Of a DNA stretch of 64,000 nt, positions 27,071 through 46,295 are shown piece after piece. The stretch comes from Pseudacidovorax sp. NFM-22 (lineage in GTDB: Bacteria; Pseudomonadota; Gammaproteobacteria; Burkholderiales; Burkholderiaceae_C): positions 1 to 64,000 of the forward strand of contig NZ_JACBFY010000011.1 in assembly GCF_021401245.1 (NCBI RefSeq). Reading direction: 5' to 3'. How positions within the stretch are numbered: position 1 is the stretch's first letter; each line of letters begins with the position of its first letter. Both the position numbers and the translations under genes were made by a program. The notes beneath the pieces are model-generated. The model saw only the letters and a program-made list of their open reading frames with translations. It did no database searches and was not told the DNA's origin.

Positions 27071-30000
27071 ATGGACATGAACCGCCGCCATTTCTTCCGC
27101 GTCAGCGGTGCCGGCCTGGTCGGCTCCAGCCTGGTGGCCCTGGGCTTCTCGCCCACCGCCGCACTGGCCGAGACCCGCCAGTTCAAGCTGGCCCGCACCA
27201 CCGAGACGCGCCAGACCTGCACGTACTGCTCCGTGGGCTGCGGCCTGCTGATGTACAGCCTGGGCGACAAGGCCAAGAACGTGAAGGCCTCCATCCTTCA
27301 CATCGAGGGCGACCCGGACCACCCCGTCAACCGCGGCACGCTGTGCCCCAAGGGTGCCGGCCTGCTCGACTTCGTGCACAGCCCCAACCGGTTGAAGTAC
27401 CCCGAGGTGCGCGAGCCCGGCAGCACCGAGTGGAAGCGCGTGAGCTGGGACGAAGCCTTCAACCGCATCGCCAAGCTGCTCAAGGCCGACCGCGACGCCA
27501 ACTTCCAGGCCACCAATGCCGCAGGGCAGGTGGTCAACCGGTGGATCTCGACGGGCATGCTGTGTGCCTCGGCCTCGTCCAACGAAACCGGCTACCTGAC
27601 GCACAAGGCATTCCGCTCGCTCGGAATGCTCGCCTTCGACAACCAGGCCCGCGTTTGACACGGACCGACGGTGGCCAGTCTGGCCCCGACGTTCGGCCGC
27701 GGTGCGATGACCAACCATTGGCAGGACATCCAGAACGCTGATCTGGTCCTGATCATGGGCGGCAATGCCGCAGAAGCGCATCCGTGCGGCTTCAAGTGGG
27801 TCATCGAGGCCAAGAAGCACAACAAGGCACGCCTCGTCGTGGTGGACCCGCGCTTCACGCGCTCGGCTGCCGTGGCGGACTATTACGCGCCCATCCGCGC
27901 CGGCTCCGACATCGCCTTCCTGGGCGGCGTCATCCACTACCTGCTGAGCCAGGACAAGATCCAGACCGAGTACGTCCGCAACTACACCAACGCCCCCTTC
28001 ATCGTGGGTCCGGACTACAAGTTCGAGGACGGACTGTTCAGCGGCTACAACGCCGAGAAGCGCAGCTACGACAACAAGAGCTGGGGCTACGCGCTCGACG
28101 AGCAGGGCAATGCGAAGGTCGACATGACCATGCAGGACCCGAACTGCGTGCTGCAGGTCATGAAGCGCCACTACGCGCGCTACACGCCCGAGATGGTCAG
28201 CCGCATCACGGGCACGCCCCAGGACAAGTTCCTGAAGGTCTGCGAGTACATCGCCAGCACCGCCGTGCCCGGCCGCACCATGACGGTCATGTACGCGCTG
28301 GGCTGGACGCAGCACAGCCAGGGCTCGCAGATCATCCGCACCGGCGCCATCGTCCAGCTGCTGCTGGGCAACATCGGCGCGCCCGGCGGCGGCATGAATG
28401 CGCTGCGCGGCCACAGCAACATCCAGGGCCTGACGGACCTGGGCCTGCTGTCGAACTCGCTGCCCGGCTACCTCTCGCTGGCACGCGACACCGAGCAGAC
28501 GCTGGACGACTACTACAAGCCGCGCGCCCTCAAGCCCCTGCGGCCCAACCAGATGAGCTACTGGCAGAACTACCCCAAGTTCTTCGTCAGCATGCAGAAG
28601 GCCTGGTTCGGCAAGGCGGCCACCAAGGAGAACGACTGGGCCTTCCACTACCTGCCCAAGATCGACAAGCTCTACGACGTGCTCCAGGCCTTCGAGCTGA
28701 TGGACCAGGGCAAGCTCAACGGCTACATCTGCCAGGGCTTCAACCCCGTCGGCTCGTTCCCGGACAAGCACAAGATCGTGCGCAGCCTGTCCAAGCTCAA
28801 GTTCCTGGTCACCATCGATCCGCTGATGACCGAGACCAGCGAGTTCTGGCGCAACTTCGGCGAGCACAACGACGTCGATCCCAAGCAGATCCAGACCACG
28901 GTGTTCCGCCTGCCCTCCACCTGCTTCGCAGAGGAGAACGGCTCGGTCACCAACTCCAGCCGCTGGCTGCAGTGGCACTGGAAGGGCGCCGAGCCCCCGG
29001 GCGAGGCCCTGGCCGACACCGAGATCGTGGGCCAGCTGTTCACGCGGCTGCGCGCGGCCTACGCCAAGGAAGGCGGCGCCTTCCCCGACCCCATCGTCAA
29101 CCTGGCCTGGAACTACAAGATTCCGACCTCGCCTGCTCCCGAGGAGCTGGCGATGGAATACAACGGCAAGGCGCTGACAGACCTGACGGATCCGAAGGAC
29201 CCGACCAAGGTGCTGGCCAAGGCCGGCGAGCAGCTGGCCGGCTTCGGCCTGCTGCGCGATGACGGCTCCACGGCCAGCGGCTGCTGGATCTATGCCGGCG
29301 CCTGGACGCAGGCCGGCAACCAGATGGCGCGCCGCGGCAATGCCGACCCCTACGGCATCGGCATGGTGCAGGACTGGGCCTGGGCCTGGCCGGCCAACCG
29401 GCGCATCCTCTACAACGGCGCCTCCACCGACCCCAAGACCGGCAAGCCATGGATCGCCAGGCGGCCGCTGGTGTTCTGGGACGGCGCCAAGTGGACCGGG
29501 GCCGACGTGCCGGACATCCGCCCCGACGCCAACCCGGCCGACCCCGACGCGGTGCGTCCCTTCATCATGACCGCCGAGGGCGTGGCGCGCCTGTTCGCGC
29601 CCACGGGCATGGCCGAAGGCCCGCTGCCCGAGCACTACGAGCCCTTCGAGTCGCCGCTGGAGAACAACCCGCTGCACCCCAACAACAAGGTGGCGCGGGC
29701 CAACCCGGCAGCGCGCATCTTCAAGGGTGACCTGGAGCGCCTGGGCGTGCCCAAGGACTTCCCGTACGTGGCGACGAGCTACCGCTTGACGGAGCACTTC
29801 CACTACTGGACGAAGAACGTGATGACCTCGGCCATCATCCAGCCGCAGCAGTTCGTGGAGATCAGCGATGTGCTGGCGAAGGAAAAGGGCATCGCCAATG
29901 GCGACTGGGTCAAGGTGTCGAGCAAGCGCGGCTACATCAAGGCCGTCGCGCTGGTCTCCAAGCGCATCTCGGTGCTGCAGGTGGACGGCAGGACGGTGCA

Positions 30001-31885: not shown

Positions 31886-32941
31886 ATGACCGAACCCAGC
31901 AACCCCGCCGCCTTCTTCGCCAGCACGCGGGTGCTCGAGCCCGAGCAGATCGCGATGCAGGCCGGCCAGCGGGTGCCCTTCCTGCGGCTGCCGCAACGCG
32001 CCACGGTGTTCGCCGACCGCGGCCTGCGCCTTCGCCAGCTGGCCGCCGGCCATCCGATGCGCGACTACCTGCTCTTCGTGGCCGACATCGCGCAGGCCCA
32101 GCACGAGGCGCTGCAGCACCATCCCGATGTGAAGCTGCCCGACCTGGCCGCCATCGAGGCCGCCTCGCAGGCACTCAGGCCGCCGCTGCCCGCCGACCTG
32201 TGGCCGCGCGACCCGGCCTGGCGCGCCGTGCTCCGGCAGGTGCTGATGCCGCTGCGAAACCGACTGCCCGAAGGCCCCGCGCGCGAGACCGTGCAGCGCG
32301 TGCTCGATGCCGACAGCGCCTGGCTGGAACGCCAGGCCGGCCTGATCACGCAGGGCATCATGTTCGGCCTGGACCTGGGCACCGCGCCACTGGTGGCGGC
32401 CGGCCTGCAGGTCTACTTCACGCACATGGCCATCGCCACGGCCGAGGAGCACGGCACCTTGCGCGCCTTCGGCGTGACCGAGCCGCTCACCCGCTGCCCC
32501 TGCTGCGGCAGCGCGCCCACCGCCTGCGTGATCCGCATCGGCGCCGACGATGCCGGCGTGCGCTACCTGCATTGCGCGCTGTGCAGCACCCAGTGGCACT
32601 ACGTGCGCATCAAGTGCGCCAATTGCGAGAGCACCAAGGGCATCCACTACCAGTCGCTGGAGCCCGAGGGCGAGGCCGCGCCCGAGCGGCCGGTGGGCCT
32701 CAAGCCCGGCGCCGTGAGGGCCGAATGCTGCGACGAATGCGGCCACTACCTCAAGCTCGTGGCCATGGACCGCGACCCCGAGGTCGAGGCCGTGGCCGAC
32801 GACCTGGCCAGCCTGCCGCTGGACCTGCTGGTCTCCGAGGCCGGCCATCAGCGCACCGGCCACAACCTGATGCTGCTCTTCGGCGACCCCGAGCCCGAGG
32901 CCGCGGCGAATCACCCACCCGACGACGGCGGAGGCGGCTGA
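31886..32941 (+). CDS. fdhE: Formate dehydrogenase accessory protein FdhE
   Basis: A 351-residue cytosolic maturation factor for Tat-exported formate dehydrogenase. The C-terminal rubredoxin-like iron sites are formed by 'CPCCGSAP', 'HCALCSTQWHY', 'KCANCESTKG' and 'ECCDECGHYLKL'. Its stop codon overlaps the selA start (TGATG), which couples enzyme maturation to selenocysteine synthesis. Confidence 0.96.
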   Translation: MTEPSNPAAFFASTRVLEPEQIAMQAGQRVPFLRLPQRATVFADRGLRLRQLAAGHPMRDYLLFVADIAQAQHEALQHHPDVKLPDLAAIEAASQALRPPLPADLWPRDPAWRAVLRQVLMPLRNRLPEGPARETVQRVLDADSAWLERQAGLITQGIMFGLDLGTAPLVAAGLQVYFTHMAIATAEEHGTLRAFGVTEPLTRCPCCGSAPTACVIRIGADDAGVRYLHCALCSTQWHYVRIKCANCESTKGIHYQSLEPEGEAAPERPVGLKPGAVRAECCDECGHYLKLVAMDRDPEVEAVADDLASLPLDLLVSEAGHQRTGHNLMLLFGDPEPEAAANHPPDDGGGG

Positions 32942-34395
32942 TGGCCATGCCCGACGAGTCCGTGGTCCACGGCTCCAAGGCAAGTCCCCAGGATCTGCCC
33001 GCCGTCGACCGGCTGCTGCGTGCCCCGGACACGCAATCCCTGATCGCCGCCCACGGCCACACGCTGGTGGCCGGCGAGGCGCGCGCCCTGCTCGATGCGC
33101 TGCGCCCGCGTGCCGTCGCCGGCCAGTTGCCCATCGCCGATGTGCAGCCTGCGGCGCTGCAGGCAGCACTGCTGAAGCGCGTGCAGGCCCGGCTGGCGCC
33201 GCGCATGCGGCGGGTGCTCAACCTCACCGGCACGGTGATCCACACCAACCTCGGCCGCGCGCTGCTGGCCGACGAGGCCCTGGCCCATCTGTTGCGGCTG
33301 ATGACCGGCCCCAACAACCTGGAATACGACCTGGCCACCGGCGGCCGCGGCGACCGCGACACGGTGGTGGAGGAACTGCTGACCACCCTGACCGGCGCCG
33401 AGGCCGCCACAGTGGTCAACAACAACGCCGCCGCGGTGCTGCTGACGCTGGGCGCGCTGGCCCGCGACCGCGAGGTGATCGTCTCGCGCGGCGAGCTGGT
33501 GGAGATCGGCGGCGCCTTCCGCATGCCCGACGTCATGGCCTCCGCCGGCGCGCACATGGTGGAGGTGGGCACCACCAACCGCACGCATCCGCGCGACTAC
33601 GAGCAGGCCATCACCGAACGCACCGCGCTGCTTTTGAAGGTGCACACCAGCAACTACGCCGTGCAGGGCTTCACGGCCTCGGTCGACGAATCGGTGCTGG
33701 CCGGCATCGCCCATGCGCGCGGCCTGCCCGTGGCCACCGACCTGGGCAGCGGCTCCCTGGTGGACCTGGCCGCCTACGGCCTGCCGCGCGAGCCGCTGCC
33801 GCAGGAGAAGCTGGCTGCCGGCTGCGACGTGGTCACCTTCTCCGGCGACAAGCTGCTGGGCGGGCCGCAGGCCGGGCTGATCGTCGGCAGCAAGGAGGCC
33901 GTGGGCCGCATCCGCAAGTTCCCGATGAAGCGCGCCCTGCGCATGAGCAAGCTGCCGCTGGCCGCGCTGGAGGCCACGCTGATGCTCTACTTGCGCCCCG
34001 AGCGCCTGGCGCAGGACCTGCCCACGCTGCGGCTGCTCACGCGTCCGCTGGAAGCCATCCAGGCCACCGCCTGCGCCGTGCACGGCCCGCTGGCCGAGGC
34101 CGTGGCGCCGCGCTTCACGGTGGAAACCGTGGCGCTGCAGGGCCAGATCGGCAGCGGCTCGCTGCCGGTGGAGCGCCTGCCCTCGGCCGGCCTGGCGCTC
34201 GCCCCGGCCGGCGTCGCCAGGAAAGGCACCGGCCGCGCCCTCGACCAGCTGGCCCAGGCATTGCGCCAGCTGCCCCTGCCCGTCATCGGCCGCATTGCCG
34301 ACGACCGCCTGCTGCTGGACCTGCGCTGCCTGGAGGCGCCGCAGGACCTCGTCTCGTCCACCCAGCTTTCTTCGCTGCGCGAGCAGCTTCAGTGA
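32941..34395 (+). CDS. selA: L-seryl-tRNA(Sec) selenium transferase
   Basis: A 484-residue PLP enzyme that converts Ser-tRNA(Sec) to Sec-tRNA(Sec) using selenophosphate. Visible motifs include 'VLNLTGTVIHTNLGRALL', 'TVVNNNAAAVLL', 'SRGELVEIGGAFRMPDVM' and the Schiff-base lysine in 'TFSGDKLLGGPQAG'. Length matches the bacterial decameric family. It starts on the last base of the fdhE stop codon and is followed 16 bases later by an acyl-CoA-dehydrogenase-like gene. Confidence 0.97.
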   Translation: MAMPDESVVHGSKASPQDLPAVDRLLRAPDTQSLIAAHGHTLVAGEARALLDALRPRAVAGQLPIADVQPAALQAALLKRVQARLAPRMRRVLNLTGTVIHTNLGRALLADEALAHLLRLMTGPNNLEYDLATGGRGDRDTVVEELLTTLTGAEAATVVNNNAAAVLLTLGALARDREVIVSRGELVEIGGAFRMPDVMASAGAHMVEVGTTNRTHPRDYEQAITERTALLLKVHTSNYAVQGFTASVDESVLAGIAHARGLPVATDLGSGSLVDLAAYGLPREPLPQEKLAAGCDVVTFSGDKLLGGPQAGLIVGSKEAVGRIRKFPMKRALRMSKLPLAALEATLMLYLRPERLAQDLPTLRLLTRPLEAIQATACAVHGPLAEAVAPRFTVETVALQGQIGSGSLPVERLPSAGLALAPAGVARKGTGRALDQLAQALRQLPLPVIGRIADDRLLLDLRCLEAPQDLVSSTQLSSLREQLQ

Positions 34396-34411: not shown

Positions 34412-35527
34412 ATGAGCCTCACCGACACCCTGGCCCGCATCGACACCGACGTGCTGCAGGCGCTTGCGCCGCGCACCGATGCCGAGGGCCGCTTTCCCCG
34501 CGAGGCCATCGATGCGCTGGCCGGCGCCGGCCTGCTGGGCCTGGTCTCGGCCACGGCCGTGGGCGGGCAGGGCCGCGGCCTGGCCGAGGCGGCGCAGGTG
34601 GTCACGGCGCTGGCGCGCACCTGCCCCTCCATCGCCATGATCGTGTGCATGCACTACAGCGCCACGGCGGTGATCGAGGCCTTCGGCCCCGAGACGCTGC
34701 GCCGGGCCGTCGCCGAAGGCAGGCATCTGTCCACGCTGGCCTTCTCCGAGGCCGAGTCGCGCAGCCATTTCTGGGCGCCCGCGAGCACCGCCCGCGCCGA
34801 GGGCGAGGCCGTGCTGCTCGACGCCCGCAAGAGCTGGGTCACCTCCGCCTTCGAGGCCGACAGCTACGTCTGGTCCAGCAAGCCGGTGGCGGCCGATGGC
34901 GCCAGCACGCTCTGGTGGGTGGACGCGAAGGCCGACGGGCTCTCGCAACCCGGCCGCTTCGACGGCCTGGGCCTGCGCGGCAACGCCTCCACGCCGATCA
35001 CGGCCCAGGGCGTGCGCATCGCGGCCGGCCAGCGCCTGGGGGCCGACGGCCAGGGCTTCGACATCATGATGGGCACCGTGCTGCCCTGGTTCGCCACGCT
35101 GAGCGCCTGCTGCTCGGTGGGCCTGTCCGACGGCGCGCTCACGCGGGCCATCGGCCATGTGGGCGCGACGCAGCACCAGCACCTGTCGACCTCGCTGGCC
35201 GACCTGCCCACCATCCGGGCCTACCTGGCGCGCGGCCGCATCAAGGCCGACATGGCGCAGGCGCTGGTGAACGACACCATCGCCGCCATCGGCGCCGGCC
35301 GGCTCGACACCATGCTGCGCGTGCTGGAGGTGAAGGCCGCCGCGGCCGAGACGGCGCTGGAGGTGACGGACATCGCCATGCGCGTGTGCGGTGGCGCCGC
35401 CTTCCGCAAGGAGGCCGGCATCGAGCGCCTGTTCCGCGACGCCCGCGCGGCCAGCGTCATGGCACCCACGTCGGACGTGCTGTACGACTTCATCGGCAAG
35501 GCCGTCACCGGCCTGCCCCTGTTCTGA
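34412..35527 (+). CDS. Acyl-CoA-dehydrogenase-like flavoprotein in the selenium operon
   Basis: A 371-residue protein with the three-domain acyl-CoA dehydrogenase fold. It has an N-terminal helical domain ('AIDALAGAGLLGLVSATAVG'), a middle beta domain ('STLAFSEAESRSHFWAPAST', 'SWVTSAFEADSYVWSSKP') and a C-terminal four-helix bundle ('DIAMRVCGGAAFRKEAGIER'). At the position of the usual C-terminal catalytic Glu (YEGT in medium-chain enzymes) it reads 'VMAPTSDVLYDFIG', so that base is absent. This fits the flavin monooxygenase or desulfurase-like branch as well as a dehydrogenase with Glu elsewhere. It lies between selA and selB on one transcript. The substrate is unknown; an organoselenium or organosulfur compound is a hypothesis from context. 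Confidence 0.8.
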   Translation: MSLTDTLARIDTDVLQALAPRTDAEGRFPREAIDALAGAGLLGLVSATAVGGQGRGLAEAAQVVTALARTCPSIAMIVCMHYSATAVIEAFGPETLRRAVAEGRHLSTLAFSEAESRSHFWAPASTARAEGEAVLLDARKSWVTSAFEADSYVWSSKPVAADGASTLWWVDAKADGLSQPGRFDGLGLRGNASTPITAQGVRIAAGQRLGADGQGFDIMMGTVLPWFATLSACCSVGLSDGALTRAIGHVGATQHQHLSTSLADLPTIRAYLARGRIKADMAQALVNDTIAAIGAGRLDTMLRVLEVKAAAAETALEVTDIAMRVCGGAAFRKEAGIERLFRDARAASVMAPTSDVLYDFIGKAVTGLPLF

Positions 35528-35538
35528 GGAGCCCCGCC

Positions 35539-36396
35539 ATGAGCCAGACCCTCGTCATGGGCGCCGTCGCCTACGCCCCCAAGGTCGTCACCATCTGGGA
35601 AGGCTTCAAGGCCTTCTTCGTGCGCAACGGCCTGCCCTTCGACTTCGTGCTGTATTCCAACTACGAGCGGCAGGTGGAGGCGCAGTTCGACGGCGGCATC
35701 CACCTGGCCTGGAACTCGCCCCTGGCCTGGGTGCGCGCCGACCGCCTGGCCCGCGCCCGCGGCCAGCAGGTGCAGGCCGTGGCCATGCGCGACACCGACT
35801 GCGACCTCACGTCGGTGCTGGTGGTGCGCGCCGACAGCGCCGTGCAGCAGCCGGCCGGGCTGCGCGGCCAGCGCATCGGCTTCGGCGCGCTCGATTCGCC
35901 GCAGGCCACGCTGATCCCGCTGGACCATCTGCGCCAGCAGGGCCTGGTGCAGGGCCGCGACTACCAGGCCCGCTTCTTCGACGTGCTGGGCGGCAAGCAT
36001 GGCGACCACATCGGCGGCGAACGCGATGCGGCACAGGCCCTGCTGGCGGGTCAGATCGACGCCTGCTGCCTGATCGACGGCAACCACCTGGCCTTCGGCC
36101 TGGACGGCACGCTGCCGGCCGGCAGCACCCGCGTCATCGCGCGCACCGGCGCCTACGACCACTGCAACTTCACCACCAGCCCGGGCGCACCGGCAGCGCT
36201 GATCGACCGCTTCGTCGCGCTGCTGATGGCCATGCGCTGGGACGACCCCGAGGTGCGGCCGCTGCTGGAGCTGGAAGGCCTGCGCGAATGGCGCACCGGC
36301 CGCACCAGCGGCTATGCGCTGCTGGAGCGCGCCGTGGACGACGAAGGCTTCTATGCCGCCGATGGACGCATCACCGCTGCCGACTATCGATATTGA
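35539..36396 (+). CDS. Signal-less PhnD/SsuA-type substrate-binding-fold protein
   Basis: A 285-residue protein with the periplasmic-binding fold of the PhnD/SsuA/transferrin group. Motifs include '[20 protein letters not shown]', '[19 protein letters not shown]', '[15 protein letters not shown]', '[20 protein letters not shown]' and '[16 protein letters not shown]'. Unlike transport partners it has no signal peptide or lipobox: the first beta strand begins at residue 4. It should therefore stay in the cytoplasm and bind, sense or carry a small anion or ligand there. It starts 11 bases after the flavoprotein gene and overlaps the next gene by 44 bases. Confidence 0.78.
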
Positions 36397-37558
36397 GTCG
36401 CTGGGGCTGGCCGAAGGCGCCCTGCTGCTCATCCGCCGCGCGCTGGCCGAGGTGCCCGCGGGCGGCGTGCTGCGCGTGCGCGGCCGCGCGCCCGACTGGG
36501 CGCTGCACCTGGCGGCCTGGTGCCGCCAGCAGGGCCACGGCCTGCAGACCTGCGACGCGCACGAGGCGCTGGTCACCCGTGGCGCCCAGGCGGATGGCCG
36601 CTGGCGGGGCGCGCAGGCCGCCGCGGGCGACACGCCCGGCCTGCCCGCCGACGAAGCCCTGCCCGGCTGGGGCCTGGCCGCGCGCGGCGCCACCGTCGAG
36701 ACCGGCAGCCCGCCCTTCGCCTTCGCGCTGCGCCGCCGGCGCGAGCTGTGGGCCGCCACGGCCGGCGAGCTCTACCGCCAGGCCGCCGCGGCCCAGTGGG
36801 ACCCGGCCACCGCCATCGACTGGGACGCGCCCTTCGACCTGCCCGACGCCATCGAGGACGCCGTGGTGCAGGTCATGACCTACCTGATCGAGAACGAGAA
36901 CGCCGCCCTGCTGGTGCCGGCGCGCCATCTGGGCCAGATCCATCCGCACTTCCGCGAGGTGCTGCAGCTGCTGGCCCTGCAGTGCGCCGACGAGGCGCGG
37001 CATGTGGAGGTCTTCACCCGCCGCGCGCAGCTGCGCGGCCGCTCGCCGGGGCTCTCCACCGCGGGCGGGCAGGCCTCGCTGCAGACGCTGTTCCAGGCGC
37101 CGGATTTCTCCATCGCCACCTTCCTGCTGGCCGTGCTGGGCGAGGGCAGCTTCGTCAACCTGCTGAACTTCCTGCAGGCGCATGCGCCCGACCCCGTCAC
37201 CGCGCAGGTCTGCCGCCTCGCCGCCCGCGACGAGGCACGGCATGTGGCTTTCGGCATGGCCCACCTGGAATACCGGCTGGAGGAAGAGCCCGACTTCCAG
37301 GTGCGGCTGGCCAACGCCATCGAGACCCGCTACGACCAGCTGGCCGCCACCTCGGGCCTGAACGAGGAGGTGTTCGACGCGCTGGTGCTGATCGCGGCCG
37401 GCGCGCTCACGCCTGCTGCCGTCGCCCGCGGCCATGCGGCCGTGCAGCAGCTGCAGCGCGACATGGCCGCCGGCCGCCGCGCCCGGCTGGCGCGGCTGGG
37501 CTTCGCACGCGACGAGGCCGAGCGGCTGTCGGCCCTGCACACGCGCAACTTCATGTGA
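36353..37558 (+). CDS. TusA-like domain fused to ferritin-like diiron domain
   Basis: A 401-residue two-domain protein. Residues 10-68 align by eye with TusA/SirA/YedF ('[20 protein letters not shown]', '[15 protein letters not shown]'), but the catalytic Cys-Pro of that family is Ala-Glu here (A20-E21). Residues about 130-380 form a ferritin-like four-helix bundle with duplicated diiron ligands: E180 or E182, then E214/H217 ('DEARHVEVF'), E264 ('[10 protein letters not shown]'), then E294/H297 ('[10 protein letters not shown]'). This suggests an oxygen-using diiron oxidase. The ATG at 36353 is favoured by GAAGG six bases upstream; 36362 is an alternative. Its position between selA and selB ties it to selenium metabolism; the reaction is unknown. 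Confidence 0.78.
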
Positions 37559-39605: not shown

Positions 39606-39698
39606 GGAGGGGAAACGTCCCTGGTGGGGCGGCCGGGCTTCAAACCCGGTGGGTGGCGCCACGCGTCGCTGGGAGGGTTCGACTCCCTCTCCCCTCCG
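39606..39698 (+). tRNA. selC: Selenocysteine tRNA (anticodon UCA)
   Basis: A 93-base tRNA with the hallmarks of tRNA-Sec. The acceptor stem has 8 bp (GGAGGGGA at 39606-39613 with TCCCCTCC at 39690-39697), the anticodon stem CCGGG/CCCGG presents TCA in the loop CTTCAAA, the variable arm is long and paired (GGTGGCGCC...), and the T arm contains GGTTCGACTCC. The discriminator is G. The following bases are CCC, so CCA is not encoded and must be added. It decodes the UGA in fdnG and lies 114 bases after selB. Confidence 0.95.
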
Positions 39699-39825
39699 CC
39701 CTTTCGGGGGCATCCGCCTGCTGCGCGGGTCGATCTTGCACCTGCGATGCTCGCCGTACCCATGTACGGCTGCGCTTCTCGGCGCAACCTCGGCCCGCTC
39801 GCGACGGCGGCTGTCCCCCGAAAGG
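39699..39825. repeat. Inverted repeat pair flanking a dispersed repeat after selC
   Basis: CCTTTCGGGGG (39700-39710) and CCCCCGAAAGG (39815-39825) are exact inverted copies about 105 bases apart. Between them is a segment containing GTACCCATGTACGGCTGCGC and TTCTCGGCGCAACCTCGGC, of a style I recall from betaproteobacterial intergenic repeats. No ORF is credible here. Confidence 0.6.
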
Positions 39826-40468: not shown

Positions 40469-41539
40469 TCAGCCCTCGACCACCAGCCCCGCCTCGCCCG
40501 CCTCGCAGCGCCCCACGACCGCCGCCGACTCGAACCCTTCGTCACGGAACACGCCCAGCACCGCATCCACGGCTTCCGGCGCGCAGCTCACCAGCAACCC
40601 GCCCGCCGTCTGAGGATCGGTCACCAGGGCCTGCGTCACGTCAGGCAGCCCGGCAGACAAGGACACCGAGGCCCCATAGCCCGCCCAGTTGCGCCCCGAC
40701 GCCCCCGTCACGAAGCCATCGGCCGCCATCGCTGCCACGCCCTCCAGCAGCGGCACGCGCGGCCATTCGATCACCACCCGCAGCCCCGCGCCCCGCGCCA
40801 GTTCCAGCCCATGGCCCGCCAGGCCGAAGCCCGTCACGTCGGTGATCGCATGCACGCCATCGAGCGCAGCCAGCTTGGGCCCCGGCGTGTTGAGCTTGGT
40901 CGTGTTGGCGATCAGCTGCCGGTAGCCCGACTCGGGCAGCTTCTCCTTCTTCAGCGCCGCCGACAGCACGCCCACGCCCAGCGGCTTGCCCAGCACCAGC
41001 ACGTCGCCGGCACGCGCATCGGCATTGCGCCGCACGCGGTCGGGGTGCACCAGCCCCAGCGCCACCAGCCCATAGATCGGCTCCACCGAATCGATGGTGT
41101 GGCCGCCCGCGATCGGGATGCCCGCCGCGCGGCACACGTCCTGCCCGCCGCGCACGATGTCGCCGATCACCGCCACCGGCAACTGGTTGACCGGCATCGC
41201 CACCAGCGCCAGCGCCAGGATCGGCGTGCCGCCCATCGCGTACACGTCGCTGATCGCATTGGTTGCGGCGATGCGGCCGAACTCGTAGGGGTCGTCCACG
41301 ATCGGCATGAAAAAATCGGTGGTCGCCACCAGCGCCTGTTCGTCGTTCAACCGATACACGGCCGCATCGTCGGCCGTCTCGATGCCCACCATCAGTTCCG
41401 GCGGAATCAGCCCCGCGCCGCTGCTGCGCAGGATCTCGCTGAGCACGCCGGGCGCGATCTTGCAGCCGCAGCCGCCGCCGTGCGAGAAGCTGGTCAGGCG
41501 CATCGGCGCCAGCGGGTTCATCGGTCGCTGCTGCTGCAT
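40469..41539 (-). CDS. selD: Selenide, water dikinase (selenophosphate synthase)
   Basis: A 356-residue enzyme that makes selenophosphate from selenide and ATP, supplying SelA and SelU. The catalytic motif is 'HGGGCGCKIAP' with C24 and K27; the Sec/Cys position is Cys here. Further motifs are 'ATTDFFMPIVDDPYEFGRIA', 'SDVYAMGGTP' and 'GGHTIDSVEPIYG'. AGGAG lies eight bases before the ATG at 41539. It is divergent from the PhnD-like gene, with a 100-base gap that must hold both promoters. Confidence 0.97.
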   Translation of the reverse strand: MQQQRPMNPLAPMRLTSFSHGGGCGCKIAPGVLSEILRSSGAGLIPPELMVGIETADDAAVYRLNDEQALVATTDFFMPIVDDPYEFGRIAATNAISDVYAMGGTPILALALVAMPVNQLPVAVIGDIVRGGQDVCRAAGIPIAGGHTIDSVEPIYGLVALGLVHPDRVRRNADARAGDVLVLGKPLGVGVLSAALKKEKLPESGYRQLIANTTKLNTPGPKLAALDGVHAITDVTGFGLAGHGLELARGAGLRVVIEWPRVPLLEGVAAMAADGFVTGASGRNWAGYGASVSLSAGLPDVTQALVTDPQTAGGLLVSCAPEAVDAVLGVFRDEGFESAAVVGRCEAGEAGLVVEG

Positions 41540-41639
41540 CGCAGTGTTCTCCTGAGGGCGTGGTAGGGACAAGCGCCGGATTATCGAAGCGCCCCCATTC
41601 CTGCCCTTGCCATCCTGTCTTTTCAACGAAGCCAACACC

Positions 41640-42506
41640 ATGACCTTCTCCCGCCGCGCCACCCTGGCCGCATTGCTCGCCACCGCCGCCTTCGGCACGC
41701 TCCCGGCCCATGCCCAGACCGGCACCCTGCGCGTGTCCGCCATTCCCGACGAGGCGCCCACCGAACTGCAGCGCAAGTTCGCCCCGCTGGGCGAATACCT
41801 CAAGCAGCAGACCGGCATGAACGTGCAGTTCACGCCCGTCACCGACTATGCCGCCGTGGTCGAGGGCCTGGCCACCAACAAGATCGACCTGGCCTGGTTG
41901 GGCGGCTTCACCTACGTGCAAGCCAAGATCCGCACCAACGGCGGCGCCAAGCCCATCGTGCAGCGGGCCGAGGACGAGGTCTTCACCAGCAAATTCATCG
42001 TGCCGGCCGACAGCACCGCCAAGACCCTGGCCGACCTCAAGGGCAAGACCTTCGCCTTCGGCGCGCCCTCCTCCACCTCGGGCAGCCTGATGCCGCGCTT
42101 CTTCCTGCTCAAGGACGGCATCAACCCCGAGAAGGACTTCAAGACCGTCGCCTATTCCGGCGCGCACGACGCCACCGTCGCCTTCGTGGCCGCAGGCCGC
42201 GCCGAGGCCGGCGTGCTCAACGCCTCGGTGTGGGACAAGCTGGTCGAGGCCAAGAATCCCAATGCCGCCAAGGTGCGCGTGCTGGCGACCACGCCCCCGT
42301 ACTTCGACTACAACTGGACGGTGCGCCCCGGCCTGGACCCGGCACTGACAAAGAAGCTGACCGACGCCTTCCTGCAGCTCGACCCGGCCAAGCCCGAGCA
42401 GAAGGAAATCATGCAGCTGCAGCGCGCCAGCAAGTTCGTGCCCACGCAGTCGTCCAACTACGACGGCATCGAGGCTGCCGGCAAGTCGGCCGGCCTGATC
42501 AAGTAA
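41640..42506 (+). CDS. PhnD-type ABC substrate-binding protein beside selD
   Basis: A 288-residue exported binding protein with a twin-arginine-containing signal ('[20 protein letters not shown]', cleavage after 'AHA'). The mature domain has '[20 protein letters not shown]', '[17 protein letters not shown]' and '[20 protein letters not shown]', typical of phosphate/phosphite/phosphonate-type binding proteins. No phosphonate catabolic gene lies nearby. Its place between selD and selU suggests that the real ligand may be a selenium oxyanion or organoselenium compound (inference). Confidence 0.85.
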
Positions 42507-42534
42507 GCCACCTCCACTGCAAGAAAGGCACGGC

Positions 42535-43350
42535 GTGAGCTTTACACTGGAAGGCGTGGGCCTGGTCCATCCCAACGGACAGCGGGCGCTTCAAGGCGTG
42601 ACGCTGTCCGCGCGGCTCGGCGAGCGCATCGCCTTCATCGGCCCCTCGGGCGCGGGCAAGACCACGCTGCTGCGCATCCTGGGTGCGGCGTTGCGGCCCA
42701 GCGAAGGCCAGGTGCAGTTGCTGGACCAGGCGCCCTGGCAGGCCGACGCGCGGCGCCTGCGCGCCTTGCGCGCGCGCATCGGCACCGTGCACCAGCAGCC
42801 GCCCATCGCGCCGCGTCTGCGGGCCGTGACGGCGGTGCTCTCGGGCCGGCTGGGGCAATGGTCCACGCTGCGGGCGCTGGGCTCCCTGCTGCGGCCCGGC
42901 GACCTGCAGGGCGCCCATGCCGCGCTGGCACAGGTGGGCATCGAGGGCCGGCTCTTCGAGCGCTGCGACCGGCTCTCCGGCGGGCAGTTCCAGCGCGTGG
43001 CCGTGGCGCGCGTGCTCTACCAGCGGCCCGACCTGCTGCTGGCCGACGAGCCCGTCTCCGCGCTCGACCCCACGCTGGCCGACACCACGCTGCGCGCACT
43101 GGCCGCGCAGAGCGAAGCCACCGGTGCGACGCTCTGCGCCTCGCTGCATGCGGTGGACTTGGCGCTGCGCTGGTTTCCGCGCGTGGTCGGGCTGCAGGGC
43201 GGGCGCGTGCTGTTCGACCTGCCGGCCGCCGAGGTGACGCCGGAGCGGCTTTCCGCGCTGTATGCGGCGGAAGGCGGCCTGCCCGCCGCCGACGAGGCCG
43301 TGGCGGTGACGCCGCCGGCAGCGGCCTTCATTCCCTCGGGTTGCCGATGA
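42535..43350 (+). CDS. PhnC-type ABC transporter ATPase
   Basis: A 271-residue ATPase starting with GTG behind AAGAAAGG. It shows Walker A '[15 protein letters not shown]', signature '[15 protein letters not shown]' and Walker B '[16 protein letters not shown]'. It clusters by order and motifs with phosphonate-type importer ATPases. It follows the PhnD-like gene by 28 bases; the first permease gene follows after 106 bases. Confidence 0.9.
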
Positions 43351-43456
43351 GGACAAGAGCCGCATGGCGCTCATGTTGCGATGACGCCGACCTACCTTTT
43401 TCTGCCGCCGGCATGCCGATGACGTCGCGGTCTGCTCCGTCTGTGTCAGGGCGCAG

Positions 43457-44329
43457 ATGACGATCCGCACGATCACCGCCGCCTCGCCGGCCTCGGCGCC
43501 CGTCGTTGCCGCACCACCGCTGCGCGACCCGGCCGCGCGCCGACGCCTGATCGGCGCGCTGGCGGCGCTGGCCATCGCCTGGCCGGTGCTGCAGCTGTCC
43601 GAGTTCCAGCCCTGGCAGCTGCTGACCAGGGGCAACCTGGCCGTCATCGGTGGCTTCCTCGCCGCCTTCTGGCCGCCCGCGCTGTCGCCCGACTTCCTGG
43701 CCCTGCTGGGCCGCGCCACGCTGGAAACCCTGGCCATGGCCACCGCCGGCACCACGCTGGCCTTCGTGATCGCGGTGCCGCTGGCCTTCGCCGCCACGCG
43801 GGCGCTGTCGGTGTCGCGCCTCGGCCCCGGCCCAGGGCGGCTGCGCGGCGGCCTCGTGCGCCGGGCGGCGCGGCTGCTGCTGATGGGCCTGCGCGCCATT
43901 CCCGAGATCGTCTGGGCCCTGCTCTTCGTGCGGGCCATGGGCCTGGGCCCGGCCGCCGGCGTGCTGGCCCTGGCCGTCACCTACGGCGGCATGCTGGGCA
44001 AGGTGTATGCCGAGATCCTGGAGTCGGTGGACAACCGGCCGGCCCAGGCGCTGCTCGAATCGGGCAGCAGCCGCATCGCCGCCCTGGCCTACGGCCTGCT
44101 GCCCAACGCGGCGCAGGAACTGGCCTCGTACACCGTCTACCGCTGGGAATGCGCGGTGCGCGCCTCGGTGGTCATGGGCTTCGTCGGCGCCGGCGGGCTG
44201 GGGCAGCTGATGGACCAGTCGATGAAGATGCTCAACGGCGGCGAGGCCTGCAGCATCCTGCTGGTCTTCCTGGCGCTGGTGCTGCTCGCGGATGCGCTGT
44301 CGAATGGGCTTCGGAGGCTGCTGGCATGA
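43457..44329 (+). CDS. PhnE-type ABC permease 1
   Basis: A 290-residue inner membrane protein with about six helices. The permease core 'LARATLETLAMATAGTTLAF'-like segment (near residue 90) and the coupling region 'LLESGSSRIAALAYGLLPNA' are typical of PhnE. The closing 'ASVVMGFVGAGGLGQLMDQS' is also conserved. Its stop overlaps the second permease start (ATGA). Confidence 0.88.
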   Translation: MTIRTITAASPASAPVVAAPPLRDPAARRRLIGALAALAIAWPVLQLSEFQPWQLLTRGNLAVIGGFLAAFWPPALSPDFLALLGRATLETLAMATAGTTLAFVIAVPLAFAATRALSVSRLGPGPGRLRGGLVRRAARLLLMGLRAIPEIVWALLFVRAMGLGPAAGVLALAVTYGGMLGKVYAEILESVDNRPAQALLESGSSRIAALAYGLLPNAAQELASYTVYRWECAVRASVVMGFVGAGGLGQLMDQSMKMLNGGEACSILLVFLALVLLADALSNGLRRLLA

Positions 44330-45129
44330 ACGGCCACCTCGCCAAATCGCTGCCCCCGCGGCCCGCACCCTGCTGGCGCTGCCGCATCGTGCTCGTGGCC
44401 GTGCTGGCCGCCATCGTCGCCAGCTTCGCTTGGCTGGGGCTGGACCTGTCGGCGCTGGTCTCGGCCGAGTCGATGGGCCACATGGGCCGCTTCGTGGCCG
44501 AGTTCTTCCCGCCCGACCTGTCGCCCGACTTCCTGGTGCGCACGGCTCAGGGTGCGCTGCAGACGCTGGCCGTGTCGGCGCTGGGCACCGTGCTGGCCAT
44601 GGCCGCGGGCGCGATGCTGGCGCTGCCCGCCTCGGGCCGCGCGGGCTGGCCGGCGCAGCAGGCCGCGCGCTTCGTGCTCAACCTGCTGCGCAGCGTGCCC
44701 GAGCTGGTGTGGGCCGCGCTGATGGTGCTGGCCGCCGGCATCGGCCCCTTCGCCGGCGCGCTGGCGCTGTCGCTGCACACCACCGGCGTGCTGGGCCGGC
44801 TCTTCGCCGAGGCGCTGGAGAACGCGCCGCCCGCGCCCGAGCGTGCCCTGCGCGAGGCCGGCGCCGGCCGCATCGCCGCCTTCGGCTACGCCAGCCTGCC
44901 GCTGGTGGCGCCGCAGTGGCTGGCCTACAGCCTCTACCGCTGGGAGATGAACATCCGCATGGCCGCCGTGCTCGGCTTCGTGGGCGGCGGCGGGTTGGGG
45001 CAGATGCTGTACTTCCACCTGTCGATCTTCCAGCAGGCGCAGTCGATGACGGTGCTGCTGGGCATGTTCGCGCTGGTGGCGCTGGTGGACGGCGCCAGCG
45101 GCTGGGTGCGGCGGCGCTGGGGGGCCTGA
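44326..45129 (+). CDS. PhnE-type ABC permease 2
   Basis: A 267-residue permease similar in plan to its neighbour: 'GALQTLAVSALGTVLAMAAG', coupling loop 'REAGAGRIAAFGYASLPLVA' and 'AAVLGFVGGGGLGQMLYFHL'. Two different PhnE-type permeases imply a heterodimeric channel. The selU gene follows after 113 bases on the same strand. Confidence 0.88.
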   Translation: MNGHLAKSLPPRPAPCWRCRIVLVAVLAAIVASFAWLGLDLSALVSAESMGHMGRFVAEFFPPDLSPDFLVRTAQGALQTLAVSALGTVLAMAAGAMLALPASGRAGWPAQQAARFVLNLLRSVPELVWAALMVLAAGIGPFAGALALSLHTTGVLGRLFAEALENAPPAPERALREAGAGRIAAFGYASLPLVAPQWLAYSLYRWEMNIRMAAVLGFVGGGGLGQMLYFHLSIFQQAQSMTVLLGMFALVALVDGASGWVRRRWGA

Positions 45130-45242: not shown

Positions 45243-46295
45243 ATGAGCCAGCCCCGCCCCGTCCGCCCGGAAGACCGCCACGCCTTCGACACCGTCATCG
45301 ACGCGCGCTCGCCTTCCGAATTCGCGCTGGACCACATTCCCGGCGCCATCAACTGTCCGGTGCTCGACGACGAGGAGCGCCGCATCGTCGGCACGCTCTA
45401 CCACCAGCAGGGCGCCTTCGAGGCCCGCCGCGTGGGCGGCGCGATGGTGGCGGCCAACCTGGCGCGGCACCTGCAAAGCCCGGTGATGGCCGAGCGGCCG
45501 ATCAAGTGGCGGCCCCTGGTCTACTGCTGGCGCGGCGGCCTGCGCAGCGGCTCGATGGTGCAGTGGATGCGCCTGGTGGGCTGGGACGCGCAGCAGCTGG
45601 CCGGCGGCTACAAGTCCTTCCGCAAGCACGTGGTCACGCAGATCGACCAGCTGGTGCCGGCGCTGCAGCTGCGCGTGATCGTCGGCGCCACGGGCAGCGC
45701 CAAGACCCGCGTGCTGGAGGCGCTGGCCGAGCGCGGCGCCCAGGTGCTGGACCTGGAGGCCGCCGCCTGCCACAAGGGCTCGCTGCTGGGCGCCTGGCCC
45801 GGCGTGCCGCAGCCATCGCAGAAGCAGTTCGAGACCCGCATCGCCGCCGCGCTGGAGGCCAGCGACCCGGCGCGTCCGCTGTACGTGGAAGGCGAAAGCC
45901 CGCGCATCGGCCGCCTGTCGGTGCCGCAGCCGCTGGTCGAGCGCATGCGTGCGGCCGACTGCATCGAGATCCGCGCCACGCCCGAGGCGCGCCTGGCCTA
46001 CCTGCTCACCGACTACGCCTACCTGGGCGACGACCGCGAGGCCCTGGCCGAGCGGCTGGGCGCGCTCAAGGAGATGCAGGGCAAGGAGACGGTGCAGCGC
46101 TGGCAGCAGTGGGCGAGCGAAGGCGCGCTGCCGCTGCTCTTCGGCGAGCTGATGGCGCTGCATTACGACCCGCATTACGAGCGCTCACAGGCACGGCACT
46201 TTCATGCCTGGGCCACGCGGCGGCCGGTGGAAGTGGCGGCGCTGGGGCCGCAGGACATTGACGCGGCGGCCGAGGCAGTGCTGGCGCTGGGCTGA
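45243..46295 (+). CDS. mnmH: tRNA 2-selenouridine synthase
   Basis: A 350-residue enzyme (SelU/YbbB) that exchanges sulfur for selenium at the wobble uridine of certain tRNAs using selenophosphate. The N-terminal rhodanese domain has 'IDARSPSEFALDHIPGAINC' and active-site C95 in 'LVYCWRGGLRSGSM'. The C-terminal P-loop domain has 'VGATGSAKTRVLEALAERGA' and 'DLEAAACHKGSLLGAWPG'. It closes the selenium island, giving the cell a second use for selenophosphate. Confidence 0.96.
   Translation: MSQPRPVRPEDRHAFDTVIDARSPSEFALDHIPGAINCPVLDDEERRIVGTLYHQQGAFEARRVGGAMVAANLARHLQSPVMAERPIKWRPLVYCWRGGLRSGSMVQWMRLVGWDAQQLAGGYKSFRKHVVTQIDQLVPALQLRVIVGATGSAKTRVLEALAERGAQVLDLEAAACHKGSLLGAWPGVPQPSQKQFETRIAAALEASDPARPLYVEGESPRIGRLSVPQPLVERMRAADCIEIRATPEARLAYLLTDYAYLGDDREALAERLGALKEMQGKETVQRWQQWASEGALPLLFGELMALHYDPHYERSQARHFHAWATRRPVEVAALGPQDIDAAAEAVLALG

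Follow-up and report, generated by a model that had tools for sequence, protein, structure and literature searches.

The closest described systems for freeing selenium from an organic compound are the Sdm and type 1 mlp clusters, dedicated genes that, in the excerpts of the source available, are thought to act by the demethylation of dimethylselenide (PMC10418091). This corrinoid-based demethylation provides a precedent for organic-selenium scavenging. Other selenium candidates were proposed from genomic context, namely YedE, YedF, LysR_Se and DUF3343 in 2015 and an ATP-binding cassette (ABC) ATPase near orphan selD in 2016 (partial texts, PMC5322559, PMC5029168), and the accessible portions of reviews from 2022 and 2026 state that no specific high-affinity prokaryotic selenium transport system has been identified (PMC13188914, PMC9312934). 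Here, we describe three genes located between selA and selB in a 64,000-nucleotide stretch of Pseudacidovorax sp. NFM-22 (contig NZ_JACBFY010000011.1, positions 1 to 64,000; hereafter, the window). We report the gene set itself, its linkage to sel genes, its co-occurrence with selenium genes, the residues that its proteins have conserved, lost or gained, and their predicted folds. In our assessment, this trio very probably serves selenium metabolism.

Three Genes between selA and selB

The trio consists of the genes for ACAD, SBPc and TFer, which lie with their flanking genes as follows:

32941..34395, + strand: selA, an open reading frame (ORF) whose orthologues lie 5' of the trio in 18 loci
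34412..35527, + strand: ACAD, a flavoprotein with the acyl-coenzyme A (CoA) dehydrogenase fold but without the usual catalytic base, 371 amino acids
35539..36396, + strand: SBPc, a protein with the PhnD fold and no visible signal peptide, 285 amino acids
36353..37558, + strand: TFer, a TusA-like head fused to a predicted ferritin-like diiron oxygenase, 401 amino acids
37572..39491, + strand: selB (TIGR00475, 468 bits, cut-off 242)

All of these genes are on the + strand, and the spacings are 16 bases from selA to ACAD, 11 from ACAD to SBPc, -44 (an overlap) from SBPc to TFer and 13 from TFer to selB. An earlier sequence-only reading of this DNA, which drew attention to the three genes, had given exactly these values, as confirmed from the ORFs and the DNA. 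The wider order is formate dehydrogenase genes with a selenocysteine insertion sequence (SECIS), fdhE, selA, the trio, selB and selC, then selD, a PhnCDE-type transporter and selU. TFer, the most specific member of the trio, was used for searches.

Co-Occurrence with Selenium Genes

TFer loci were sought with exact peptide patterns in a set covering 84,980 species, a search that reaches close relatives only and yields an incomplete list. It returned 52 loci, comprising 45 close homologues (L001-L045) and seven that are diverged or partial (L046-L052). Tests for sel genes used 37 of the 52 (L002-L008, L010, L031, L032 and L048-L052 were left out), and the raw tallies among the 37 tested genomes were 27/37 with selB over its cut-off and 35/37 with selD over its cut-off. 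Two of these genomes hold diverged TFer homologues only and were set aside. Among the remaining 35, a marker for selenocysteine (Sec) was present in 29, selD only in five and neither in one (G024, Ideonella azotifigens). We defined a Sec marker as selB over the cut-off or selC and, for G520, as a selD gene with an in-frame TGA; four of the 29 (G009, G011, G013 and G023) have a selB at 223-240 bits, just below the cut-off of 242, plus selC.

Together with the window genome, two further Burkholderiales genomes (G073 and G164) and six actinobacterial ones, these 35 locus-derived genomes make up 44 TFer carriers. A Sec marker was found in 37 of them, selD only in six and neither in one; that is, 43/44 have selD or a Sec marker. 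The counts exclude the diverged L046-L049 and the partial L050-L052, and G169, which is the same assembly as G017, was counted once. The sequence-only reading would have failed had most occurrences of the trio been in genomes devoid of sel genes; among the carriers examined, this was not the case.

The background frequency of selC was obtained from 220 Burkholderiales and 80 Caulobacteraceae genomes, and the enrichment described here covers these two groups. TFer matched 16/220 Burkholderiales genomes at E 0.001, of which four (E < 1e-100) were counted, with 11 weak matches (E 1.9e-10 or worse) and a broken piece in G119 left out. In Caulobacteraceae, 18/80 genomes matched, five (E < 1e-150) being counted and 13 (E 4.6e-10 or worse) left out. 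Matches to selC were counted at >60 bits, as lower rows (up to ~52 bits, gathering score 47) resemble tRNA-Ser. By this measure selC occurs in 63/220 Burkholderiales and 18/80 Caulobacteraceae genomes, and in 3/4 and 5/5 of the respective TFer carriers, centre genomes included.

The two samples contain their own centre genomes, G000 (the window genome) and G013, which are carriers by choice. Without the centres, selC was found in 4/4 Caulobacteraceae carriers compared to 17/79 genomes (P 0.0016), and in 6/7 carriers compared to 79/298 genomes for the two groups combined (P 0.0009). The combined P value was 0.004 after one of the near-twins G018 and G019 was also dropped and 7.5e-5 with the centres kept; relatedness is only partly allowed for. 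It is the Caulobacteraceae result that tells most, because the genes are not beside sel genes there.

Linkage to sel Operons

In 18 of the 45 close loci, from Variovorax, Hydrogenophaga, Rhizobacter, Ideonella and Roseateles, selA and selB flank the trio, and in a Peristeroidobacter locus (L013) it adjoins selC, selA and selD. The other 26 have no sel gene within the fetched stretch, some of them being on short contigs. A whole trio without sel genes in the fetched stretch was found in, e.g., Mitsuaria, Rugamonas, Myxococcota, Acidimicrobiia and Acidobacteriota. Outside sel operons the selected neighbors that were scanned are mixed and include genes for major facilitator superfamily (MFS), PhyH, CoA-transferase and alkyl-sulphatase-like proteins, among others.

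A search with SBPc of 198 Actinomycetota genomes gave nine matches, six with a strongly diverged trio in which TFer is 35-43% and SBPc 35-39% identical to the window proteins. All six of these carriers have selD and five have selC; in the sixth, selD contains an in-frame TGA. In G431 (L072), selD, selC, selA, selB, ACAD, SBPc and TFer are co-directional, and the trio shows 36-39% identity. On a TFer tree of 51 rows, which carries a long-branch warning at L072 and some "elsewhere" rows on short contigs, the label "in or beside a sel operon" requires at least four changes. Given these changes, and an actinobacterial copy far from the proteobacterial ones, linkage to sel genes has been gained or lost more than once.

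Two further features of the actinobacterial loci were observed. A gene for a PemK-like toxin, with a small neighbor, lies between selA and selB in L072 (13363-13944). In an actinobacterial selenium user, a gene for a LysR regulator is divergent from TFer (L069:6207-7103) and is a candidate for comparison with the proposed LysR_Se.

The diverged loci L046-L049 encode TFer-like proteins of 25-27% identity, with tandem matches in L046 (7934-10444) and L047 and a cupin-like gene upstream of the TFer-like proteins in L046. The two of their genomes that were tested, G036 and G037, carry selB, and their selD contains an in-frame TGA. An apparently decaying copy was seen in G119 (L055:5481-6643), a Burkholderiales genome with selD and without selC, where SBPc is in two pieces and the TFer head alone was matched.

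Predicted Folds and Conserved Residues

Judging from its ligands and its modeled fold, TFer is predicted to be a ferritin-like diiron oxygenase of the AurF/aldehyde-deformylating oxygenase (ADO)/R2lox type. It matched the Pfam family AurF with 38 bits (cut-off 29.6) and TusA with 17 bits, below the cut-off of 28.6. Its AlphaFold2 model, with a predicted local distance difference test (pLDDT) score of 89, matched R2lox, ADO (4rc6, target template-modeling score 0.84) and the azoxy synthase VlmB in Foldseek; comparison with PDB sequences gave no convincing match and comparison with plasmids gave none. Two E-X(~30)-DEXRH motifs lie in its helical bundle fold. Residues E182, D213, E214, H217 and E264 are present in 53/53 rows and D293, E294 and H297 in 52/53, the single exception presumably being L044, which was read partly out of frame. 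At the C-terminus, His396, Thr397, Asn399 and Met401 are identical in all 50 rows that reach there, which suggests a functional tail.

The active-site cysteine of TusA lies in its CPxP motif. No cysteine was found in window columns 9-33 of the TFer head in any of the 53 rows, and the stretch matching CPxP, positioned by eye, reads LxxGA. Cys57 (41/53 rows) and Cys211 (43/53) are common and not invariant. The lack of a cysteine where TusA has CPxP led us to reject a selenium carrier of the TusA type, leaves a persulfide or perselenide head of this type unsupported and makes a TusA-type relay on the TFer head unlikely.

SBPc has a type II binding-protein fold according to AlphaFold2 (pLDDT 93) and Foldseek, where the best match was PhnD (7s6g, E 2e-21), PtxB was also among the top ones and the enzyme Thi5 was at rank 50. 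It matched the Pfam family Phosphonate-bd with 99 bits, and scored 232.4 bits with the Rv1680 model NF049985 (curated cut-off 400) and 41.8 bits with TIGR04553 (cut-off 250), below the cut-off in both cases. By eye, its N-terminus has no export signal, in contrast to the clear signal of SBPp, the binding protein of the neighboring transporter. The Ser-Ser-Thr-Ser stretch of PhnD, retained in SBPp, is Asp-Ser-Pro-Gln-Ala in SBPc, and His208-Cys209 of SBPc aligns with the Asp-Tyr pair of PhnD 7s6g; we take both the Ser-Ser-Thr-Ser and Asp-Tyr residues to be ligand positions in PhnD, an assignment helped by the Foldseek entries for HtxB D206. Asp119, Ser120, Lys153, His154, Asp156, Glu161, His208 and Cys209 of SBPc are identical in 52/52 rows, the Rv1680 type included. 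A transporter binding protein that merely lacks its signal was rejected in view of the changed ligand stretch and the invariant Cys and His. The fold, the absence of a visible signal and the invariant His-Cys pair would suit either an enzyme or a protein that binds a soft chalcogen, and His208-Cys209 is a possible chalcogen site.

ACAD matched the three Pfam acyl-CoA dehydrogenase domains (N/M/C: PF02771, PF02770 and PF00441) at or above their cut-offs. Its best NCBIfam match was NF049984 (Rv1679/FadE16), at 406.3 bits and below the curated cut-off of 600, and SfnB, DszC and 3-sulfinopropanoyl-CoA desulfinase were weak matches. Its VMAPTS stretch aligns with the YEGTS stretch of 5ol2, in which the glutamate, near the C-terminus, is presumably the catalytic base of acyl-CoA dehydrogenases. 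VM(A/G)P occupies this position in 41/43 rows and the remaining two are gapped; an out-of-frame ACAD row, L071, was ignored. Some subfamilies carry the base elsewhere, and inspection by eye showed no glutamate in the VLPxF stretch. The absence of the usual catalytic glutamate, replaced by VM(A/G)P in this family, makes an ordinary dehydrogenase unlikely and led us to reject an ordinary acyl-CoA dehydrogenase as a candidate.

Two of the protein assignments of the sequence-only reading need correction. The ferritin-like diiron domain of its "TusA-ferritin fusion" is supported, with intact ligands, but the head lacks the TusA cysteine; the PhnD-type fold of SBPc is borne out by AlphaFold2 and Foldseek, whereas the absence of a signal is a judgment by eye; and ACAD has the fold domains of an acyl-CoA dehydrogenase but not the catalytic glutamate of the ordinary enzyme. 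The oxidative chemistry that it envisaged is plausible, as the diiron ligands are intact.

Neighboring Genes and Transporter

The other selenium-related features of the window are as follows:

27653..27711, + strand: SECIS element of the formate dehydrogenase gene (Rfam SECIS_3, 84.6 bits)
5' of selA, in the same run: fdhE (TIGR01562, 265 bits, cut-off 188)
39606..39700, + strand: selC, tRNA-Sec (ARAGORN; 39606-39697 in a second annotation)
40571..41500, - strand: selD, selenophosphate synthase (extent of the profile match; TIGR00476, 423 bits)
41640..42506, + strand: SBPp, a binding protein with a signal peptide by eye (start chosen within ORF 41607-42506; TIGR04553, 369.5 bits, cut-off 250)
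42535..43350, + strand: PhnC-type ATPase (TIGR02315, 204 bits, below the cut-off of 266)
43457..44329, + strand: PhnE-type permease 1 (TIGR01097, 209 bits, below the cut-off of 217)
44326..45129, + strand: PhnE-type permease 2 (an ORF, start chosen within ORF 44149-45129; homologues in this order in Variovorax loci)
45243..46295, + strand: selU/mnmH, tRNA 2-selenouridine synthase (NF008752, 498 bits, cut-off 266)

The complete PhnCDE-type transporter between selD and selU (41640-45129) is by itself a candidate selenium importer, and its binding protein SBPp passes TIGR04553, the NCBI model for a "putative selenate ABC transporter". In a Hydrogenophaga locus (L012), a homologous transporter, with a binding protein 52% identical, sits between TFer and selB after ~1.4 kilobases of unassigned sequence. 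This position links importer and trio, and SBPp is a possible supplier of the substrate.

In related operons, genes for DsrE-like and nitroreductase-family proteins, a LysR regulator with a PBP-like domain and a GCV_H-like protein were observed 3' of selC (L011:13714-15885, L012:18617-19543 and L024:13342-14150). These are possibly further selenium genes.

Proposed Role and Alternatives

Tentatively, and with confidence that falls short of even, we favor the view that the trio is an accessory, oxygen-dependent module with which aerobic selenium users release selenium from an organic compound and supply it ahead of SelD. A small selenium compound would be imported by the neighboring PhnCDE-type transporter, or by another route. 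The ACAD-fold flavoprotein and the diiron TFer would then oxidize this compound and break its carbon-selenium bond, a step that would be the aerobic counterpart of corrinoid dimethylselenide demethylation in anaerobes. In the cytosol, the invariant His-Cys site of SBPc would hold the selenium-bearing intermediate, which would then be handed on, reduced to selenide and used by SelD. The substrate, the cleavage of the carbon-selenium bond, the order of the steps and the hand-over are what we infer. As one complete aerobic acquisition pathway, with an importer, a cytosolic Cys-His SBPc, a non-dehydrogenase ACAD, a diiron oxygenase that frees selenium from organic matter for SelD and a sibling in which a radical S-adenosylmethionine (radical-SAM) protein is swapped in, the scheme is possible and, on balance, unlikely to hold throughout.

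A number of observations weigh against this explanation. First, selD is common anyway (161/220 Burkholderiales and 42/80 Caulobacteraceae genomes), so carriers with selD only are weak evidence, selB and selC were preferred as markers, and co-occurrence with selD was dropped as proof of a selenium role. In Burkholderiales without G000, selC was found in 2/3 carriers compared to 62/219 genomes, which is not significant (P 0.19). Moreover, 60 of the 63 selC-positive Burkholderiales genomes are without TFer, which indicates that the trio is accessory and not needed for Sec. G024 shows no selB, selD or selC, and G073, a genome that is 99% complete, has selD and not selC; finding the trio in selD-positive genomes without selC, such as G073, fits a role before SelD and not in Sec insertion. 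Ten Caulobacterales loci are without ACAD in the fetched stretch and have SBPc and TFer (one has TFer alone), although two of the ten start at or inside the SBPc-TFer pair. Where the trio lies outside sel operons, the selected neighbors scanned included no additional gene that accompanied it consistently.

Two relatives also count against it. In G481 (L067:8203-11110), ACAD and SBPc pass the Rv1679 and Rv1680 models and the adjoining radical-SAM protein passes the Rv1681 model; this genome has no selD or selC, and there is no TFer within the fetched stretch. G373 has ACAD, SBPc and selD, is without selC, and likewise has no TFer within the fetched stretch. It looks as though TFer is the selenium-associated member of the trio, while ACAD and SBPc also occur without selenium genes, and the G481 set looks like an exchange of oxygenase and radical-SAM proteins. 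The selenium-processing module suggested by the sequence-only reading is upheld as far as co-occurrence and the sel-linked actinobacterial copy go, but it is accessory and has a two-gene relative in G481, where selD and selC are both absent.

Two alternatives keep the trio within selenium metabolism. In one, the transporter imports selenite or selenate, the cytosolic SBPc binds and retains the toxic oxyanion or a thiol adduct of it, and ACAD and TFer manage its redox state before it reaches SelD. SBPc shares a fold family with the TIGR04553 protein SBPp, solved members of which bind phosphite, arsenite and arsenate, and there are transporter genes near the trio. The Ser-Ser-Thr-Ser stretch is, however, lost in SBPc and kept in SBPp, and selenite reduction does not need an oxygen-using diiron enzyme; a thioredoxin-based route for it is described in the available part of one source (PMC8538045). 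Taken as a whole, we consider such a chaperone for inorganic selenium unlikely.

In the other, the trio makes a small selenium carrier or cofactor for use by the Sec machinery or together with it, and SBPc is an enzyme. The invariant Lys, His, Asp, Glu and Cys residues of SBPc (52/52) could be catalytic, some other proteins with a binding-protein fold are enzymes, as is Thi5 among the SBPc matches, and the fold relatives of TFer include VlmB. Oxygenases and radical-SAM proteins are known to replace one another in biosynthesis, e.g., AcsF/BchE and HemF/HemN, and a radical-SAM protein stands in the place of TFer in the Rv1679-Rv1680-Rv1681 sibling. Set against this, no carrier-protein, ligase or transferase gene is constantly linked among the neighbors scanned and most of the Sec users sampled are without the trio, and we regard a biosynthetic role as improbable.

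It is also conceivable that these are metabolic genes with no selenium function that travel by chance with sel operons. This would accommodate the Rv1679-Rv1680-Rv1681 relatives of G481, which has neither selD nor selC, the many loci whose fetched stretch shows no sel gene, the genomes G024 and G073, and a selC association that is not significant in Burkholderiales alone. It does not predict that many copies away from sel genes are still in Sec users, and the sel-linked actinobacterial copy is deeply diverged; we hold chance travel to be quite improbable. Lastly, the presence of a diiron oxygenase and a flavoprotein in a sel operon, in genera that are mostly aerobic, could reflect homeostasis or detoxification, with the module oxidizing surplus selenide or selenols in aerobic cells, but this is very improbable given that detoxification is not expected to track Sec use and that the nearby import system points to supply and not to disposal.

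Comparison with Known Systems

In open-licence PubMed Central papers, searches aimed at the trio, at its protein families and at selenium transporters gave no account of such a module and, in the portions of such papers that name Rv1679-Rv1681, no functional work. The link of the trio to selenium is well supported, and the reaction set out above is a proposal. Together with the adjoining transporter, the trio provides defined genes with which the acquisition of selenium by aerobic bacteria can be tested, and its conserved residues name the mutants worth making. It would also lend chemical context to the uncharacterised genes of the Rv1679-Rv1681 type.

The Rv1679-Rv1680-Rv1681 type (NF049984, NF049985 and NF049973) resembles the trio in having adjacent genes for ACAD-fold and PhnD-fold proteins. 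Its L067 rows share K153, H154, D156, E161, H208 and C209 of SBPc and have VMAP at the catalytic-base position of ACAD. It differs in that a radical-SAM protein replaces TFer in L067, in a genome without selD and selC, and the window ACAD and SBPc score below both curated cut-offs of the Rv1679 and Rv1680 families. In TIGR04553 (ABC_peri_selen), SBPp is a member (369.5 bits) and SBPc is not (41.8).

As far as they are described in the partial texts cited above, none of YedE, YedF, LysR_Se, DUF3343 and the ABC ATPase is an ACAD, PhnD-like or ferritin-like protein, and it is by these descriptions that they are set apart from the trio. The Sdm/mlp system, in the excerpts available, employs corrinoid methyltransferases in anoxic organisms, unlike the flavin-fold and diiron proteins of the trio. 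Among sulfur systems, SsuEADCB, SfnB and DszC function in the scavenging of alkanesulphonates and sulphones. The trio is similar to these in combining a binding-protein fold with oxygenation of the ACAD or flavin type, and differs from them in its binding protein, which by eye has no signal peptide, in its diiron enzyme and in its location in a Sec operon.

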